DNA from: Zeus faber
Taxonomy: Eukaryota > Chordata > Actinopteri > Zeiformes > Zeidae
Direction of reading: 5' to 3'
DNA length: 64,000 bases
Assembly (NCBI GenBank): GCA_960531495.1
Contig: OY482859.1
Coordinates: 18,516,286-18,580,285, forward strand
The first letter of the stretch is position 1; each line of letters starts with the position of its first letter. Both the position numbers and the translations under genes were made by a program. Under the pieces are notes generated by a model. That model searched no databases and had not been told where the DNA came from. It saw only the letters and a list, made by a program, of their open reading frames with translations. This document shows positions 3,330-56,865 of the stretch, one piece after another.

Positions 3330-3428
3330 ACCGGGTGCGTTGCATTACATTTCACTGCATATATGTATGGAAGTATGTATATGTATGTGACAAATAAAAA
3401 TCTTGAATCTTGAATCTTGAATCTTGAT
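3330..3428 (+). mobile_element. LINE 3' tail with TTGAATC repeats
   Basis: The segment reads through TTTCACTGCATATATGTATG and GTATGTGACAAATAAA and ends in about three to four copies of TTGAATC (about 3402-3428). The same tail, ending in the same heptamer repeat, occurs at 9640-9705. Heptamer-type tails after ACAAATAAA are typical of 5'-truncated CR1/L2-type non-LTR retrotransposons in fish; the clade is recalled, not proven. No reverse-transcriptase frame is present, so this is a tail-only remnant. Confidence 0.65.
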
Positions 3429-4329: not shown

Positions 4330-5179
4330 CTGTGTCCTGGGTCCAGGTAAATGGGCTCGGGATCAGGGTGTCTGTATGCCTGTTGCTCAGCAGAGCAATC
4401 AACAAGTAACAGGTAAATCACCCATCCCCACACACACAGGGAGAGCCTCTGTCATGATAAGTTTCCATCTGCTCCGGCTTGTTATATCTTGCCACTCTCT
4501 ACAATAAACTGCTGTGTTTGCAACATCTCTGTGCCTGTGTCTCTGTGTTGGAAGGCCCTGAAAACTCCAGTCGGGTGGCGAGCGGAACTGCCACAGTTGC
4601 CCCTGAACAGAGACTCTCCAGCACAGGGAACAGACACAGAAGGGCCGTCTGAATACACACAGGAGCCACCAGCAGGTCAAATGGTGACCACAGCACCAGC
4701 CCTCTCCTGACTGGCAGCGAAAGCACCCAGGATGTCCAGCGGAGGAACGGGGGAGAAGTAGCCACAGCAACCACCATATGTAACCGCCTGCAGCTAGCTG
4801 CGCCGCCGAGCAGCGGCTGGCGGGACCCCCAGCAGCCCAGCAGCCAGGCCACCCCTCCAAGCAGTCCACGCAACAGCCAAGCCCCGGCTATAACTCCACC
4901 AGCCAGCACAGCAGCCCGACGTTCTGAAAGGGAGGAGGGTGTAGTCTATATCATCGCCCTGGGGGCGGGTCGCCCATGGACTGTGTTGTTCCGGGGTTCC
5001 AGGTCTCCTGGAAAGGGGACTGTTTTCCTTGGACACTTTATTTACGGTATAGGAACCCTGTTTCAGAGTCCGGTCTTTTTATATGTTTAGGTATGTTAAC
5101 CCTGAGTCAGAGACCGCTATTTGAATTAGGGTTGATAAAAAAGCCACTCAGGTGGCAGGTGGCCGGCGGAACTGCAACA
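4330..5179 (+). mobile_element. Defective LTR retrotransposon without coding capacity (copy 1)
   Basis: The left LTR covers about 4330-4595, and its first ~20 bases are diverged. It contains ACAATAAACTGCTGTG (poly-A-signal-like) and ends in CCACA. A primer binding site follows at 4596-4615. The interior (4616 to about 5140) has no protein frame but matches the interior of copy 2 (47019-47623) block by block, for example around CCAGCCCTCTCCTGACTGGC and CCTGAGTCAGAG. At 5143-5179 the sequence resumes with a match to the last ~40 bases of the LTR (CTCAGGTGGC, then GCGGAACTGC), so the 3' LTR survives only as a stub. A deletion removed the polypurine region and most of the right LTR. Long minus-strand frames at 4399-4909 are shadows. 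Confidence 0.8.
4596..4615 (+). other. tRNA primer binding site, lysine-like
   Basis: GTTGCCCCTGAACAGAGACT directly follows the CCACA end of the LTR. It resembles the TGGCGCC(C/T)GAACAGGGAC primer site used by elements primed with lysine tRNA. Equivalent sites at 37784 and 47001 are better preserved. Confidence 0.65.
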
Positions 5180-6190: not shown

Positions 6191-6192
6191 TA

Positions 6193-6510
6193 AAGGTACT
6201 CCTCACTTAATAACCTACTGTACCTGTTTAACGACCGTTCGGACTTATGACCAGCTGTCCGACCAGTCTGTATTGTGCGCTGCGTACAGTAGCGCAGCGT
6301 GCGCACGGCGTCTCAGCGTCAAGCATCTCATCGTGCATCACCGTTCTCAGTCTCAGTCTCGTTCCCGCAGTCTGCCAGTATTCACTACACTGGTGTTCGC
6401 AATGGTTATGCCCCCTTACCGTGAAATAACACGGGTCCTCACTTATTGACCAATTCACTTAGCGATCTGGTCCTAGGAATGGAACTCGGTCGTTAAGTGA
6501 GGAGTACCTG
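6193..6510 (-). mobile_element. TA-flanked MITE, copy 1 (Tc1/mariner-like)
   Basis: A 318-bp element bounded by TA dinucleotides (6191-6192 and 6511-6512), with terminal inverted repeats AGGTACTCCTCACTTAA and TTAAGTGAGGAGTACCT. Internal landmarks such as CCTTACCGTGAAATAACACG and GCGAT..CCTAGGAATGGAAC also appear, in reverse orientation, in copies at 41563-41870 and 55671-55989. It has no coding capacity. TA target duplication is the hallmark of the Tc1/mariner superfamily; the parent transposase is not in the window. Confidence 0.85.
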
Positions 6511-6593
6511 TAGTCTATTGGATGACCACAACAATTGTGCATTTTATGAGAAAAGCATGACATTTCTAACATAGTTAGTGCATACCATTAGAT

Positions 6594-6850
6594 TAATTTT
6601 CAGATGTGGAGGAAGATCAGATTTGATCTCTGAGGACTGTGAGAGGTCCAAGATGGTCCCCAGTCCACCAGGTCTAATATTCAAACGGGTTTAATTTTGG
6701 AACCAAACAGTTTAGAAAAACATTTAAGGTGCCATTTCCAACTAAGTTGGGGGTGCCCATTCATTTGGTGATACTTTTGAGATCGCTGGAACCCAAGGAC
6801 ATGCATTTAGATCAACATCAAGTTCAAATTGCGTTAAAGACTTTTGGACA
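6594..6850 (+). repeat. Left arm of a long inverted repeat
   Basis: This stretch, starting at TTTCAGATGTGGAGG, matches the reverse complement of 9535-9863. Shared landmarks are TCTGAGGACTGTGAGAGGTC, CAAGATGG, CAGGTCTAAT, TTAATTTTGGAA, GAAAAACATTT, TTTCCAACTAA, TTGGTGATA and TTTTGAGATCGC. Similarity weakens inward beyond about 6850 and outward before about 6590. The two arms point towards each other and enclose the protein pseudogene at 7070-8930, as terminal inverted repeats would. Confidence 0.7.
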
Positions 6851-7000
6851 TTCTTTTGCTATTACATTTATTTTAGCTTGGACACTGGATTGGACCAATG
6901 CAACATAGTGAAACTCTGCTTCCATTTGGACACTATAGGGATAATAATACAAAAACATAACAGAATAGACCCATGGTGCTGCTATTTTAATACTATATTA

Positions 7001-7045
7001 ATACTAATGATGATGATAATGATAATGATAATGGTAATGATCAAA
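7001..7045. repeat. GATAAT-type simple repeat
   Basis: A short interrupted run of GAT and AAT units (GATGATGATAATGATAATG). Minor low-complexity tract inside the element bounded by the inverted arms. Confidence 0.6.
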
Positions 7046-7069
7046 ATCTAACAGTCTCCAGAACAAAAG

Positions 7070-8930
7070 CACAGTGCAGTGCACTTTAGTTCAGTGCACT
7101 TGAGTTCAGCTTTGGCACACTTGCACCGTCAAGTGCACCCTTTCTCGTAGTGACAGCAGATCAATTCATGATGAAATTTTGATGCTTCAGGTAGAGTGGT
7201 CCAAAGCGGCTGCCACCCAGTTGTTTCCTTTGTCGAGCCCCAGTCAGGTGGCTCTGGCATCTCTGGATCCAGGACCAATGCCTGGTTCTAACAATTGGTT
7301 TGGTAGCAAGTGTGCTTGATGTGCTGCTTGAGTGCTGCCTGGTTTGGCGAAATGTTCTTTAGAGTTCTAGACTTCTGTGTGAAGAGCTGTCTCCTGGCAT
7401 CATTCACTTCTGTGCTCTCACTGGTTTGGTCGTACATCGGCACCACAAATAGCTGTAGCAGTAACATTTATCCTTCACTGACCTCACTTGGCATGCATAG
7501 GAGTTAACTGAAAGCATCATTCACCTCTGGGAAAGTCTTCTTTCCTCCTGCATCCAGGAGGTTGGAAGGTCTCACGGGTTCGTGTACAGCCGGCACACTG
7601 AAGTCCTTTGTCTCAAGGGCAGGTGGTGGCACAACTGTATAGGCTGATGGTAGAGGTGTCACTGACTTGGTGAAATAGCCACCCTGACTAATCACTAGTA
7701 CACCACGATAAGTTCCGCCATGTGTGTGTGACAGATGCTGCATAAGAGAGATTCCAGTGCCATGGAAGGAATCTTTGGCAATTGCAGATCTTAGGTTGTG
7801 GTTGATGTTGTCCACAGCTACTGTAGTGAACAGTCTATGACACAACTTTGGTGGGCACACAACATTTTTCACCCTACAGTGCTGGCAGACAGCATTGGCA
7901 ATGTCTGATGTGAGTTGCAACAGCCTGTCATAGGAAACACACAATCCCAGATTGACCAGTGTGTCAACCAGCCTTCTACTTAGTGTAATTGGATGGATCT
8001 TGAGGGACAGATAGAGTGGGAGTAGAGTTTCTCGGCTGCAGCTTTGATGTGCTGAGCTTTGTGAATCCACATTCCGTGGATTCTTTACGCTGCTGAACAC
8101 CATTAATTGGGAGATTGCTAAGGCAGGTTTGGTGGTGGTTGTATGGACCAGCTGAGTCTGATGCTTGATGTGTGCCCCATCAAGAATCATGTTGAATAGA
8201 GCCAAGAGGAATGGTGGCACAGCCTCCTGCTGGCAGATGGCCTGGAACGACCCTTCAAAGGAGGAAGTCAAAAATTACTTTGCGCACCACCTGTGCTGCT
8301 TGCATTAAGTGCATGGCATCACTGCCATGATGACAAGTCATCATGAGGGCTGGTCCTCTCAAAACTCAGAAGTGTCTCTTCCATGTGAATGTGCCCTCAG
8401 ATCAGGAAGCGCAGAAAGCAGTCTGTTTTTCAGTCTTGTGGTGTGAATCCATTTCTCTACAGTCAGACCAAGCTGCTCAAGTCCGACCTTGTACAGCTGA
8501 GGGATGTCTATCAGTTTGAACACAGGAGCACTGTCCTCATCACTATTCATGTCTTCCAAGAAGGCCACTAGCTCAGCAAAGGCTATGTCATGCAGGCAAG
8601 AATCATCTACATCATTGCATTTTGGTGCAGCCTGGCTGGCTCTGTTGTACAGTGAACGCAGACAGTCGTGATGGTACTTAACCTCAATGGCAATCATGTC
8701 TCCTGCTTCAAGCTTGGCTAGCAGAGCAGTGTCCTCAACTTCAAGGGCACACTTCCACACACTTGTACCAATGTTGTAGGTTGATGCATTATGTAAGTCT
8801 GCAGAATCAGCAGGCTCATTGCAGAAGAAAAAGTAGGCTCTGTGGTCTGTTGATGGCTGTGAGCAGATCGCGTGTGCACAGTAGAGGTACTTTGTTGTTG
8901 TCCTGTAGTTAATTATCCCTGACTTTGCTT
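7070..8930 (-). pseudogene. Broken copy of an unnamed multicopy protein family with cysteine-rich tail
   Basis: Read on the minus strand, conserved-looking blocks appear in order. They are NEPADSADLHNAST upstream of 8760; a block with LLAKLEAGDMIAIEVKYHHDCL and YNRA (8359-8760); GSDAMHLMQAAQVVRK (about 8275-8345, in a shifted frame); VPPFLLALFNMILDG, VCPPKLCHRLF and SFHGTGISLMQH (7504-8271); ARRQLFTQKSRTLKNISPNQ and WTTLPEA (about 7190-7400); and a tail with the cysteine pattern CCHYEKGC...RCKC...LKC...KCT near 7075-7175. Breaks include a stop at 8359, a frameshift on each side of the 8275-8345 block, a stop near 7504 and one inside the tail. I recall the same blocks in unannotated, highly repeated proteins of fish and cnidarian genomes, but I know no assigned function. 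The flanking inverted arms suggest that it was cargo or the mobility gene of a transposon. Confidence 0.7.
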
Positions 8931-9534
8931 ATCAAATGCCACTCCAAGTTGAGGTCCATCGGCATGTGCTGAAGGGTGTGGGACTGGAGCAGGTCTTCTG
9001 CCAGGGATGCTTAGCCACTACCGATGGGCACTGGAGGAGGTGGGACAGGTAGTAATGCCCAGCAGGTTATACCATCTACCTGTACATTTACTATATACCA
9101 CAAAAAATCGGACAATCATACTCCGGGACACAATTCAATGGATATATTTTTGTGACTATGAACAGGAAAAATCTTGCGACCGGAATGTTTGCTGACACCT
9201 GGTGGTTGGACTGCAGTATTCTGCTTGGGTGTCAGGACGTGTTGCTATGACATAATTTGTCTAGCAGATGATTAGCTGATATTATTGGTAAGGTGGGCCT
9301 ATAAGCTACATGTCATTAGCCAGGATTTATTTACTGGTACTCTACAAATAATGCATCTATACCCAGCTAGTTGAAGCATGGATATACACAATACATAACT
9401 AGAGGAAGAAGAAGAGAAGAAGAAGAAGTGCACCGTATCTGCCACAAGCACACACACACACACTGACAAGTTCAATAACTAAATTTGCCACAATGGCATC
9501 ACTGGGTGTTCATTTGCAAATTTTAACTTTTGAT

Positions 9535-9863
9535 TGCTTATTTTTTGGTGGAAATTTTCACCTTGACTTTCACCTAAATACATTTCTTTGATTTCTGGCG
9601 ATCTCAAAATATCACCAAAATAATTGGCATCCCCAATTTCACTGCATATGTATGCACGTATGTATTTGTATGTGACGAATAACTTGAATCTTGAATCTTG
9701 AATTTAGTTGGAAATGAAAGCTTGTTTTCTCAAATGTTTTTCTACACTGTTTGCTTCCAAAATTAAGCACATTTGAACATTAGACCTGATGGCCATCTTG
9801 GATCTGACCTCTCACAGTCCTCAGAGGTCAACTACGACTTGCCTCCACATCTGAAATTAAACA
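9535..9863 (-). repeat. Right arm of a long inverted repeat, interrupted by a LINE insertion
   Basis: The reverse complement of this stretch matches 6594-6850 (see that entry), except that 9640-9705 is an inserted LINE tail. Inward of about 9535 similarity to the left arm is lost, and outward of about 9863 (near ACATTACGGATAG) likewise. The divergence between arms suggests an old element. Confidence 0.7.
9640..9705 (+). mobile_element. Truncated LINE tail with AATTT target duplication
   Basis: CACTGCATATGTATGCACGT...GTATGTGACGAATAA followed by TTGAATC units matches the tail at 3330-3428. AATTT occurs at 9635-9639 and again at 9701-9705. In the left inverted arm the same neighbourhood is continuous (AACTAAGTTGGGGG), so it shows what the site looked like before insertion. 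Only the last ~60 bases of the element were copied in. Confidence 0.75.
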
Positions 9864-10476
9864 TTACGGATAGAGGTGTGCGCTGCAGGAGTTTTCCTTT
9901 CTCACATTGCATGCTTGAAAATTGCAACTTCACATAAGATTCGAGGGTCTCACGAAACCCAGCAGCGCAATGAAAGTGATGAAGATCCCATGAATCAGAA
10001 TGAAAGCCCCCCCCCCCCCTCACCTCGGCTGGCACGTGTGGGGGCTCGGGCGCAGCACCACCTCCGCCTGGTCCGCGGGTGTATATTTAGTCATTTATAT
10101 ATTTATATTTACATTTATTTAGATATTTATTGCCTTGTTTATTTATTTACAGATTTTTTTTTAAAGCATATAAATTTTGATTTGCTTGCTACATCCACAT
10201 ACATCATTTTTGTGTGTGCAAATGAATGAGCTGGTTGCCCTGCTGCTCCGTCTGTCGCTCTCCGGTTCAGGGGGTGTGTACTGGGACCGCATCGGGTGAC
10301 TTCTGCTGGACTGTCTGTCCGTTGCCCCATCTATTCCGGCATTCTCATGCCATGTGTAAAAACGTGCAAGACGGAAATATTCCTGAATGCATCTGCATGT
10401 GTGAATAGTGAAACTCACTAGCGGTGCCGGAAAGGTTATAGCAGAAATGTACCGGGACTTACGTGTGAAAGGGGCT
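9864..10476. other. No gene; poly-C tract and TTTA-rich stretch
   Basis: A C run lies at about 10007-10019 and a TTTA-rich stretch at 10083-10160. GTGTGAAAGGGGCTT at 10463-10477 looks like the edge of another decayed DNA transposon, but I could not pair it with a partner. No coding evidence. Confidence 0.4.
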
Positions 10477-10603
10477 TAACAATGGCATAGCCGTCAGTGC
10501 TAAAAATAATTACATGTGTTGAAATCGAAAATCGGATCGAATGATGACCTTAAAATCGAAAGTCAAATCGAATCGTGGATTTGGAGAATTGTGACACCCC
10601 TTA
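10477..10603. mobile_element. 3' end fragment of a hAT element
   Basis: About 125 bases match 56740-56865 (CAATGGC[A/G]TAGCCGTCAGTG, GACCTTAAAATC, and the final GAGAAT[T/C]GTGACACCCC type end). In reverse complement the end reads GGGGTGTCACAATTC, a typical hAT terminus in fish. The other end of the element is absent here, and upstream sequence differs between the two copies. Confidence 0.65.
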
Positions 10604-11766
10604 TTAGGGTATATACTAACTATGCTAGAAATGTCATGCTTTTCTCATATTTCACATTTCTCAAAAAGATTGTTCATTCTGTGGCTTTGCTAAAGGAGAT
10701 GAGCGGGTCAATTGAAGAGGTCTGTTTAGCACTATTAAAACGTGTTGTATTGCAAGAGCAGTGGCATTTCTCCCTACTAAACATAGGGATAACATCTAAC
10801 ACAATACACAGACAGTAACGGTTCAAATTTGAAGACAGAAATTATAAAAGAAACTATTCCCCCATTCCAACAGTTTGAGGTTTACTCCCATAATGGACAC
10901 TATTGGGAAAAAAGCGAGTGCAATTTATTTAAACAAAAAAGTGAATATGTAAATGTATTTAGAATGATCCATGGCTTCCTTACACTGAAGTCCCTTAGGA
11001 GAATACCAAAATACCTCTCAGATAAATCAATTTTGAAATATTTTTGTAGCACAATGACATTATGCAAAAAACAGAGCTAAGGGGCTGTGGGGGAGGATGG
11101 TACTTCCCCAGAAAACTGCATCTGTGTGCGATTAGTTCCACTACCTAAGATAGAGGATGCACTGCAAATGTGACCTCATCATAATCTGTGTCACCATGGC
11201 TAAAAGAAAAAACAGCCCGAACAAAAAAAGAGCATCAATGACATCAACTGTGACTTGCACAAACAGTAGTCCTTTGCACTACATTACAATATATTACATA
11301 ATTTAGGACTTACTATAAGTGAATTTTCCAGTCGTACTGGAGGCCCACAAGACATCACAGTCACTATCAGCAAAGCATTCAATAACAACTAGTAACATTA
11401 GTGGAGTCATCCAGCTTTGTGGGGTTTATTTTGGGGGGAGGGGGTTGCAACTGTTCTCCACCCATCATTAATTGTCTGATCATTGTGGAACTGAAAGCAG
11501 CACGGGGTTGAGCAGACGGGAGATCTCACAGGTATTAGCCGCTAATTGCTGTCAAGCAAACAAGCAGCATTTTCTGGAGAAAACAATCTATATTAATTCC
11601 TCCTGTTCTCCCTTGAAAAAATACACATTGGAACTTGGGCGAGCAAGATAAATGCTTAGACCATAATTACAACTAATTGTGCAAATAATTGCAAAGTTCT
11701 TGGGCCACCTATACCCGCAATAAAACAAAAGCAATCTATGTGGCTCTTGGCTGTGAAATTAGAAGG

Positions 11767-41560: not shown

Positions 41561-41562
41561 TA

Positions 41563-41870
41563 CAGGTAGTCCTCACTTAATGACCAAGTTCCATTCCTAG
41601 GACCAGGTCATTAAGAGAATTTGTCATCAAGCGAATTGGTCAATAAGCGAGGACCCGTGTTATTTCACCGTAAGGGGGCGTGGCGGTTGTGAACGCTAGC
41701 GTAGTGAATACTGACAGTCTGAACGAGACTGAGACTGAGAATGGTGATGCGCAATGAGATGCTTGACGCCGCGCACGCAGCAGTATTGTACAATACCGAC
41801 TGGTCGGAGAGCTGGTAGTCAGTCAGAGCGGTCGCTAAACGAGTAGGCCGTTAAGTGAGTTAAAGATACC
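41563..41870 (+). mobile_element. TA-flanked MITE, copy 2
   Basis: A 308-bp element flanked by TA (41561-41562 and 41871-41872). The left terminus CAGGTAGTCCTCACTTAATG is well kept; the right terminus TTAAGTGAGTTAAAGATACC is diverged. The interior has CCATTCCTAGGACCAGGTCA, GCGAGGACCCGTGTTATTTC and GTAAGGGGGCGTGGC, shared with copy 3 and, inverted, copy 1. Its left TA touches the TA at the end of the Tc1 element. Confidence 0.85.
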
Positions 41871-46710: not shown

Positions 46711-47868
46711 TGTGGTTTAAGCAGCCACACCTGTCTTGGGCCTCGGTAATTGGGCTCAGTATCAGGGTGACTGTACGCCTGTTGCTCTTCAGAGCAATAA
46801 ACGAGCAACAGATAAATCACCCATCCCCACACACACACGGGAAGAGCCTCCATCATGACAAGTTTCCATCTGCTCCCGGCTTGTTACATCTTTCCGCTCT
46901 CTACAATAAACTGCTGTGTTTGCACCTCTATCGGTATCTCTGACGCAGAGTGCCCTGAAAACACCGCTCGGGTGGCACATGTTAGGCAGAACTGCCACGG
47001 TGGCACCCTAACAGGGACTCTCCGGTACAGTCAAGGGACACAGAAGAGTCGTCCGAAGACGCACCGGAGCCACCAGCAGGTCAGCGGGCGGCCACAGCAC
47101 CAGCCCTCTCCTGACTGGCAGCAGGAGCACCCAGGATGTCCAGTGGAGGACCGGGGGAGTAGCAGCCATAGCAGCCACCATGGGTAACAACCTGCGGGCT
47201 AGCTGCACCTCCCAGCAGCCACCACCAGGACCATCTAGCAGCCCAGCAGCCAGGCCACCCCTCCAAGCGGCACCCGCAACAGCCAAGCACAGCTACACAT
47301 CCCCCAGCCAGCACAGCAGCCTGAGGCCCGACAACCCGGAACAGAGGAGGGGGTAGTCTGTTTCGTCGCCCTGGGGGAGGGTCGCCCATAAACCGTGCTA
47401 CTCCGGGGTTCAAGGTCTCCTGGAAAGGAGACTGTTTTTGTTGGACACTTTTGTTTATTTAAGGTATGGGAACTCTGTTTCAGAGTCCAGGCATTTTATT
47501 GTGTTAGGTATGGCAACCCTGAGTCAGAGTCCGCTATTTGAGTCAATGTTTTTTTTCTTCTTGGTTGGGGGGTAAGGTTTTCGGCCAGGGATACTCCCTA
47601 GCCACAGTTAGGTGTTGGGGGCATGTGGTGTAATTTAAGCAGCCACACCTGTCTTGGGTCTGGATTCAGGGCGGCTATTTGCCTGTTACTCGTCAGAGCA
47701 ATCAACGGGCTTCAGGTAAATCACCAATCCCCACATACCCATGGGAGAGCCTCTGTCACGGCAGGTTTCCATGTGCTCCCAGCTTGTTACATCTTGCCAC
47801 TCTTTACAATAAGCTGGTGGGTTCGCAACATCGCTGACTCTCTGTGTTGGAGGGCCCTGAAAACTGCC
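46711..47868 (+). mobile_element. LTR retrotransposon without coding capacity, two LTRs (copy 2)
   Basis: The 5' LTR (about 46711-46999) starts TGTGGTTTAAGCAGCC and ends ACTGCCACG. The primer binding site TGGCACCCTAACAGGGAC is at 47001-47018. A non-coding interior (47019-47623) follows, ending in a G-rich stretch (GGTTGGGGGGTAAGG and GTGTTGGGGGCA) that fits the polypurine tract. The 3' LTR runs 47624-47868, lacks its last ~45 bases, and carries its own AATAAGCTGGTG. The interior of about 605 bp has no gag or pol and matches the 4.6-5.1 kb interior. Frames 47008-47413 are GC-rich shadows. It resembles terminal-repeat retrotransposons in miniature. Confidence 0.85.
47001..47018 (+). other. tRNA primer binding site, lysine-like
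   Basis: TGGCACCCTAACAGGGAC lies one base after the LTR end and differs from the lysine-tRNA-type site at only a few positions. Confidence 0.75.
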
Positions 47869-55632: not shown

Positions 55633-56455
55633 CAGGGCTGCAGGAACAAAATTCTAATAGAATTTGAATACAGGCACTCCTCACTTAACCACCGAGTTCC
55701 GTCCCAAGGACTAGATTGTTAAGCGAATTGGTGGATAAGCGAGGACCCGTGTTATTTCACGGTAAGGGGGCGTGGCCATTGCGAACACTAGTGTAGTGAA
55801 TACTGACAGACAACGGGAACGACACTGAGACTGAGAACAGTGATGAGATGAGATGCTTGACGCTCAGACGCCGTGCACACCACACGCCGGTCGGTCTTGT
55901 ACCAGTCGGTACAAAACCGACTGGTAGGAGAACTGGTCGCAAGTCCGAATGGTCATTAAATAGGTAGATCGTTAAGTGAGGAACACCTGTATTACAAAAA
56001 TAAATAACGATAAAGTTCAATGTAAGTTCATCCAATTTGTTGCACAGTGAACGCACATCAGAGAGAAATAATCCCGGTAACAGTCTGCGAAATCCGCATC
56101 AGCAGAGATGCACAAGCACGCTGACGCGTTTCCCTCTCCTCCGGCGTTTCACTGTATGTACAAGGGAGTGCACCTTTGACCAGAATGTCCAGTAATTCCA
56201 AAGATGTGCTATGAAAGTGGGAGACAAACCTGACCATCACCGAATGTCCTCTAGTGCAGAGGTTCCCAACCAACGGCTTACGGACGGTGTTGGGCCGTGG
56301 GGTATTTGCCCGGACCGTGAGAACGAGGGGGGGGATTTTTTCAGGAGCGATCTGCTCCACTGCAGAGCAGCTGCAGGGAACAGAGTAAATTAAATACATC
56401 TAGAAGTTTTATTTGCTTTGTTTGGAGAAAAGATCACCCTGAACAGAGCTGCAGG
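55633..56455. mobile_element. Second copy of the hAT-like/LINE composite, right end lost
   Basis: It starts CAGGGCTGCAGGAACAAA, is interrupted at 55671-55989 by a MITE, and then matches 27140-27545 closely, including the antisense LINE start (VRSLCNKLDELTLNF on the minus strand). After CAGAGCTGCAGG near 56450 it diverges from the 26973-27652 copy and lacks that copy's right terminus. Confidence 0.65.
55671..55989 (+). mobile_element. TA-flanked MITE, copy 3 (nested)
   Basis: A 319-bp element with TA at 55669-55670 and 55990-55991 and termini CAGGCACTCCTCACTTAA and TTAAGTGAGGAACACCTG. It is the best preserved of the three copies, with GCGAGGACCCGTGTTATTTC and GTAAGGGGGCGTGGCC inside. Confidence 0.9.
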
Positions 56456-56865
56456 TAGTTATTTGCCTTTTACTACCAGCGTTCCCCTCTGGCAAAAATA
56501 ACATCTGTTTTTCTGCCCTTATTTTGGTGAGTAACTTAAAAGTAGTGTAATAAGCAACTTATTGTTTATTATTCTAAAGGCTAGTTTTGCTAAAACCCTT
56601 ACTGTAACTGCTTCGGTGTGTTGTTTAAATATTCTCATATTTATGTTATTATTATTTGTTACTATTATTAAATTATTAATTATAAACGTTACAACAACAA
56701 CAAACAAGTGTTTTTCTTTACAAATAAAGACTCGATAGTCTAACAATGGCGTAGCCGTCAGTGCTGAAAAAAATACATATGTTTAAATCGAAAATCAAAT
56801 CGAATCGTGACCTTAAAATCCAAAGTCAAATTGAATCGCGGAGTTGGAGAATCGTGACGCCCCTA

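Follow-up and report, generated by a model that had tools for sequence, protein, structure and literature searches.

The window analysed here, a stretch of 64,000 nucleotides from the genome of Zeus faber, contains two sequence arms in inverted orientation that enclose the remains of a gene for an unnamed, cysteine-tailed protein. This arrangement raises the question of whether the arms and the protein belong together as one mobile unit. Comparison of the window copy (W, on contig C15 of the 803-Mb genome) with its relatives indicates that they do, with a probability of roughly 0.88, and that W is a dead, internally deleted and non-autonomous class II DNA transposon of the terminal inverted repeat (TIR) type.

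The inverted arms of W are real and far from chance. They were detected as two inverted pairs, 6593-6748 against 9701-9860 (76% identity) and 6744-6828 against 9556-9639 (78% identity), and the top inverted match within positions 6300-10899 reached 127 bits, compared with at most 36.5 bits in 100 dinucleotide shuffles. The initial annotation had placed inverted arms at 6594-6850 and 9535-9863; their existence was corroborated, but these limits turned out to be too narrow. A further, outer inverted pair (6545-6586 against 10608-10649, 93% identity) demonstrated that the arms extend outward and that inserted sequence, from about 9863 to 10607, interrupts the right one. This insert is missing from the left arm of W and from the arms of the copy on contig C8. 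The right arm consists of three pieces (about 9541-9638, 9704-9862 and 10608-10692), and once the insert and the dispersed repeat at 9639-9703 are excluded, each arm comprises about 320 bp and the two are the same at 257 of the 301 bases aligned. The left arm, an inverted copy of the right one, was compared in an alignment with 17 further family ends, and its terminus was located. The whole element runs from about 6511 to about 10692 (Table 1), which corresponds to 4182 bp with the inserts and about 3.4 kb without them, in place of the previous estimate of about 3.3 kb.

Table 1. Features of the window copy W, with positions in the window.
Feature	Position	Strand	Remarks
Left terminal inverted repeat	6511..6830	+	3' end relative to the protein; starts TAGTCTATTGG
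C-terminal part of the protein, with WTTLPEA and Cys-rich tail	7048..7540	-	broken by stops; 49% amino acid identity to the C7 tail over 163 aa
Internal deletion junction, common to W and C8	7540 (approximate)	.	alignment of W with C8 runs through it
256-aa open piece, with SFHGTGISLMQH	7504..8274	-	72-77% amino acid identity to C8 in the best two stretches
189-aa open piece, with the zinc-finger-like block KYHHDC	8359..8928	-	71% amino acid identity to C8 over 93 aa
N-terminal protein piece	8942..9101	-	frame differs from the rest; 86% DNA identity to the C8 copy
Right terminal inverted repeat	9541..10692	-	5' end relative to the protein; 3 pieces
Short dispersed repeat of about 65 bp, inside the right arm	9639..9703	.	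genome matches
Insert of about 745 bp in the right arm	9863..10607	.	ends TAGAGGTGTG...GACACCCCTTA; hAT-like by eye

The minus-strand pseudogene with named blocks and a Cys-rich tail that had been described between the arms was recovered in a single frame. The blocks LLAKLEAGDMIAIEVKYH (8724-8671), SFHGTGISLMQH (7770-7735) and WTTLPEA (7203-7183) share this frame with the Cys-rich tail, which runs up to a stop codon at 7050-7048. Ahead of that final stop the frame is broken by about nine others below 8889, and the protein gene of W is therefore a pseudogene. The N-terminal piece matches module 1 of the copy on contig C20, and the first catalytic Asp of a putative transposase may lie in an AVDN block located upstream in the 256-aa piece. 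The loss of the central part of the protein had escaped the first reading. At the junction near 7540 W and C8 are contiguous, whereas the copies C21 and C7 match W on the downstream side only and hold other sequence at this point, which is part of the protein's middle. The protein gene of W is thus without its middle.

This deletion turned out to be informative about the history of the element. The C8 copy, which is located on another chromosome, agrees with W in its two ends, in its protein and in the deletion junction. The similarity is confined to the arms and the interior, and several kb of flanking sequence on each side are unmatched in this one pair of copies. The conclusion from this comparison is that an element that was already deleted reached a second chromosome. 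The resemblance of W and C8 (81% identity over 1853 aligned columns) might alternatively be attributed to a segmental duplication, in which a piece of chromosome was copied with no movement of an element. This explanation is very unlikely, because several kb of flank were available on each side and no similarity continues past the element ends, and because five further elements with paired ends, protein-bearing or empty, are found in other surroundings.

Searches of the genome with five protein fragments, in which fragments of one copy were counted once, identified at least 15 loci: W on C15, C8 at 9.69 Mb (the copy C8), C21 at 9.52 Mb (C21), C7 at 7.74 Mb, C22 at 9.49 Mb (C22a) and 8.20 Mb (C22b), C20 at 24.16 Mb, C8 at 18.05 Mb (C8b, two protein matches 5 kb apart that were joined), C5 at 1.53 Mb (C5a) and 3.58 Mb (C5b), C6 at 3.20 Mb, C1 at 27.52 Mb, C21 at 13.57 Mb, C13 at 22.38 Mb and C4 at 26.10 Mb. 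Searches with the arms revealed at least 16 arm-bearing places, a count that leaves out one search in which the matches beyond the element were to the dispersed repeat. Nine of the 16 are protein loci, and the chance that an arm match falls at a protein locus is about 0.0002 per match. An arm is present on at least one side at 10 of the 15 protein loci. Both sides carry one at six of them (W, C8, C7, C5b, C20 and C22b), always in inverted order; C22a, C8b and C5a have an arm on one side and C21 retains the inner part of one arm. The proposal that the arms and the protein move together as a single unit is supported by the W/C8 similarity that stops at the arms and by the diverged C7, C5, C20 and C22 copies, in which the protein is flanked by an end on either side.

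Arms alone and protein copies without arms, the two situations that the initial annotation regarded as contrary to a single unit, were encountered in part, and they do not refute it. Seven of the 16 arm-bearing places have no protein match within 6 kb. One of these, on contig C11, is a two-ended element of 1306 bp with no protein match, as expected of a deletion derivative. At the other six (C1 at 18.34 and 27.88 Mb, C21 at 12.81 Mb, C17 at 12.19 and 30.25 Mb and C18 at 15.03 Mb) one end was seen, the far end having been looked for only within the extracted stretch. Conversely, no arm was found at five of the 15 protein loci, a point against the unit; of these five, only C6 had its surroundings extracted, and in part. 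The seven places without a nearby protein match would also fit two unrelated dispersed repeats that came to lie in inverted orientation around a host pseudogene by coincidence, but the presence of both ends at six protein loci, invariably inverted, makes such an origin extremely improbable. Equally hard to credit is that the arms bound something larger, for instance a retroelement or a giant self-synthesising transposon: the frames that by eye look gag- and RNase H-like are in a stretch of about 4.5 kb (L037 2206-6738) that was seen in C8 alone and splits its protein gene, and is thus a later insertion, and the seven two-ended copies span 1.3-7.5 kb.

Besides W and C11, the two-ended copies measure 7481 bp (C8), 4330 bp (C7), 2630 bp (C5b), 3370 bp (C20) and 5418 bp (C22b, itself interrupted by about 1.6 kb). 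The protein modules are colinear among the copies compared. The protein end is separated from the 3' terminus by 540 bp in W, 473 bp in C7, 420 bp in C22a and 506 bp in C22b; in C20 the separation is only 240 bp, which speaks against a constant distance. No complete copy was seen among the copies found, in a genome where some stretches read N and the counts are lower bounds. At one site of the protein, in module 6, the copies C7, C22a and C5a hold an extra 0.7-1.1 kb (L050 6563-7640, L052 5013-5711 and L074 3957-4723) that C20 is without. An intron was considered for this sequence and set aside, as its start resembles by eye a dispersed repeat that is also present in C5b, and a shared insertion is likelier.

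The anatomy of the family suggests how such elements might have moved. In a complete relative, a single large protein would comprise a zinc-finger-like N-terminus, a transposase-like core, a further conserved region and the Cys-rich tail. Protein produced by another, complete copy would bind the inverted ends of about 320 bp, excise the element and join the DNA elsewhere in a cut-and-paste reaction, and the insertion would probably duplicate 3 bp of the target. In this scheme the W/C8 lineage would have lost the middle of the gene, retained both ends and kept moving in trans; that movement took place after the deletion follows from the presence of the same deletion on two chromosomes. Copies without the middle of the gene could still move for as long as a complete copy was active, which fits W, C8 and C11, and at 81% identity between W and C8 the mobilisation of the deleted copies would be old.

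Target duplications were looked for in the seven two-ended copies, with the termini set at TAGT or TAGC, the start found in 14 of 18 aligned ends, and with nine lengths in all (2-8 bp and 9-10 bp). At 3 bp outside the termini, 11 of 21 positions agree, with a permutation fraction of 0.0143 that is uncorrected for the nine lengths. Agreement is complete in C5b and C22b, two of three positions in C7 and C20, one of three in C8 and none of three in W and C11. With flanks of 4 bp, 11 of 28 positions agree (permutation fraction 0.098), and at 9 and 10 bp there is no excess (18 of 63 and 19 of 70 positions, fractions 0.48 and 0.59). This distribution weakly suggests that the family duplicates 3 bp of its target. 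Nine lengths were tried, and the duplication could instead be a 2-bp TA with a shorter terminus. When the flanks of C5b were joined and searched against the genome, the two flanks themselves were the only matches, which indicates that this copy is inserted in unique DNA and has no paralogous empty site.

The initial annotation had proposed an undescribed transposon. As to the superfamily, Academ, and within it the AcademX lineage, would be a plausible known home and is the most likely assignment, at about even odds; it is based largely on the type of protein, together with size, the suggested length of the target duplication and motif-like blocks. Proteins with these blocks are presumably Academ-like, with an XPG-type nuclease ahead of the Cys-rich tail. 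By eye, blocks in the expected XPG-like order can be made out in C21, C20, C22a and C22b, within the last third of the protein. AcademX is described as having a target duplication of 3-4 bp and a nuclease, and AcademH one of 9-10 bp and a helicase (PMC10045372). The 3 bp suggested here would fit AcademX. No nuclease similarity was found in the decayed fragments of this family. AcademH would be of the same superfamily as the family of W if the latter is Academ at all; it differs in the length of its duplication, given the lack of excess at 9 or 10 bp, and in being a helicase type, for which there was no match in Pfam. In size, the longest copy outside the interrupted C8 (C22b, 5418 bp, itself carrying the interruption mentioned above) is close to the mean of 5565 bp stated for Academ of bivalves (PMC10294476), and Academ is reported from zebrafish, medaka and stickleback (PMC4746887). 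PIF/Harbinger elements have TIRs and a 3-bp target duplication (PMC2213677), both of which are comparable to the ends described here, the 3 bp being a suggestion. The fragments gave no match to a Harbinger transposase in Pfam. The large Cys-tailed protein is unlike what is known of the PIF/Harbinger group.

A TIR transposon of the same anatomy that is not Academ, whether it stands as a separate superfamily or is a divergent branch of another whose target duplications are short, has a chance a little short of one half. It would account for the failure of every fragment tried to reach the cut-off in Pfam searches with HMMER, and for the failure of the XPG-like reading in profile searches: an XPG-type nuclease had no match in Pfam or PDB (HMMER), and an hhalign profile against FEN-1 gave a probability of 0.1, in both cases with decayed fragments. 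These are weak tests on decayed sequence, and the size and the suggested 3-bp duplication fit the descriptions of Academ. That the family represents a superfamily of its own is rather unlikely; it would then be defined by an element of about 5 kb, inverted ends of about 320 bp starting from TAGTGG and one large protein that combines a zinc-finger-like N-terminus with a transposase core and a CxC tail rich in Cys. Many of the repetitive proteins that lack annotation in fish and cnidarians would then stem from it.

Other database searches were also negative. The best match of the W fragments below the Pfam cut-off, DUF6736 (E 0.025), was taken for chance, and sequence and profile searches of PDB with protein fragments produced no meaningful match. 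For a DDE/D transposase fold, Pfam gave no match at the cut-off, and a single-sequence structural model of the 256-aa piece had a pLDDT of 35.5. Viral contigs returned 0 matches with the protein and 0 with the motif; the sole motif match in genome contigs, in a bacterial contig, was discarded as it is inside a long unrelated open reading frame but out of frame. A literature search on a CXC-tailed transposon protein gave nothing recognisable among the matches listed.

Taken by itself, W belongs to yet another DNA transposon family that is old and low in copy number. Its description nevertheless links a protein that has neither a name nor a Pfam family to defined transposon ends. The blocks could then serve to recognise transposon genes among the proteins of other genomes, and non-autonomous copies of the family can be found through its terminal sequence.

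Other repeats occur in and beside the arms of W and elsewhere in the window. The dispersed repeat in the right arm accounts for most of the rows in one arm search of the genome, 38 of 41 matching 9639-9703 or little more, and has an additional copy at 3349-3422. The longer insert in the same arm has an imperfect candidate duplication of 8 bp, and its last part has a paralogue at 56741-56864. A MITE of about 320 bp with inverted ends of 25 bp, probably flanked by TA, adjoins the left terminus of W at about 6191-6512, and two more copies of it are present in the window at 55666-55992 (81%) and 41561-41859 (74%). An unrelated repeat of about 800 bp also occurs twice in the window, at 4333-5124 and 46732-47541, with 80% identity between the copies.
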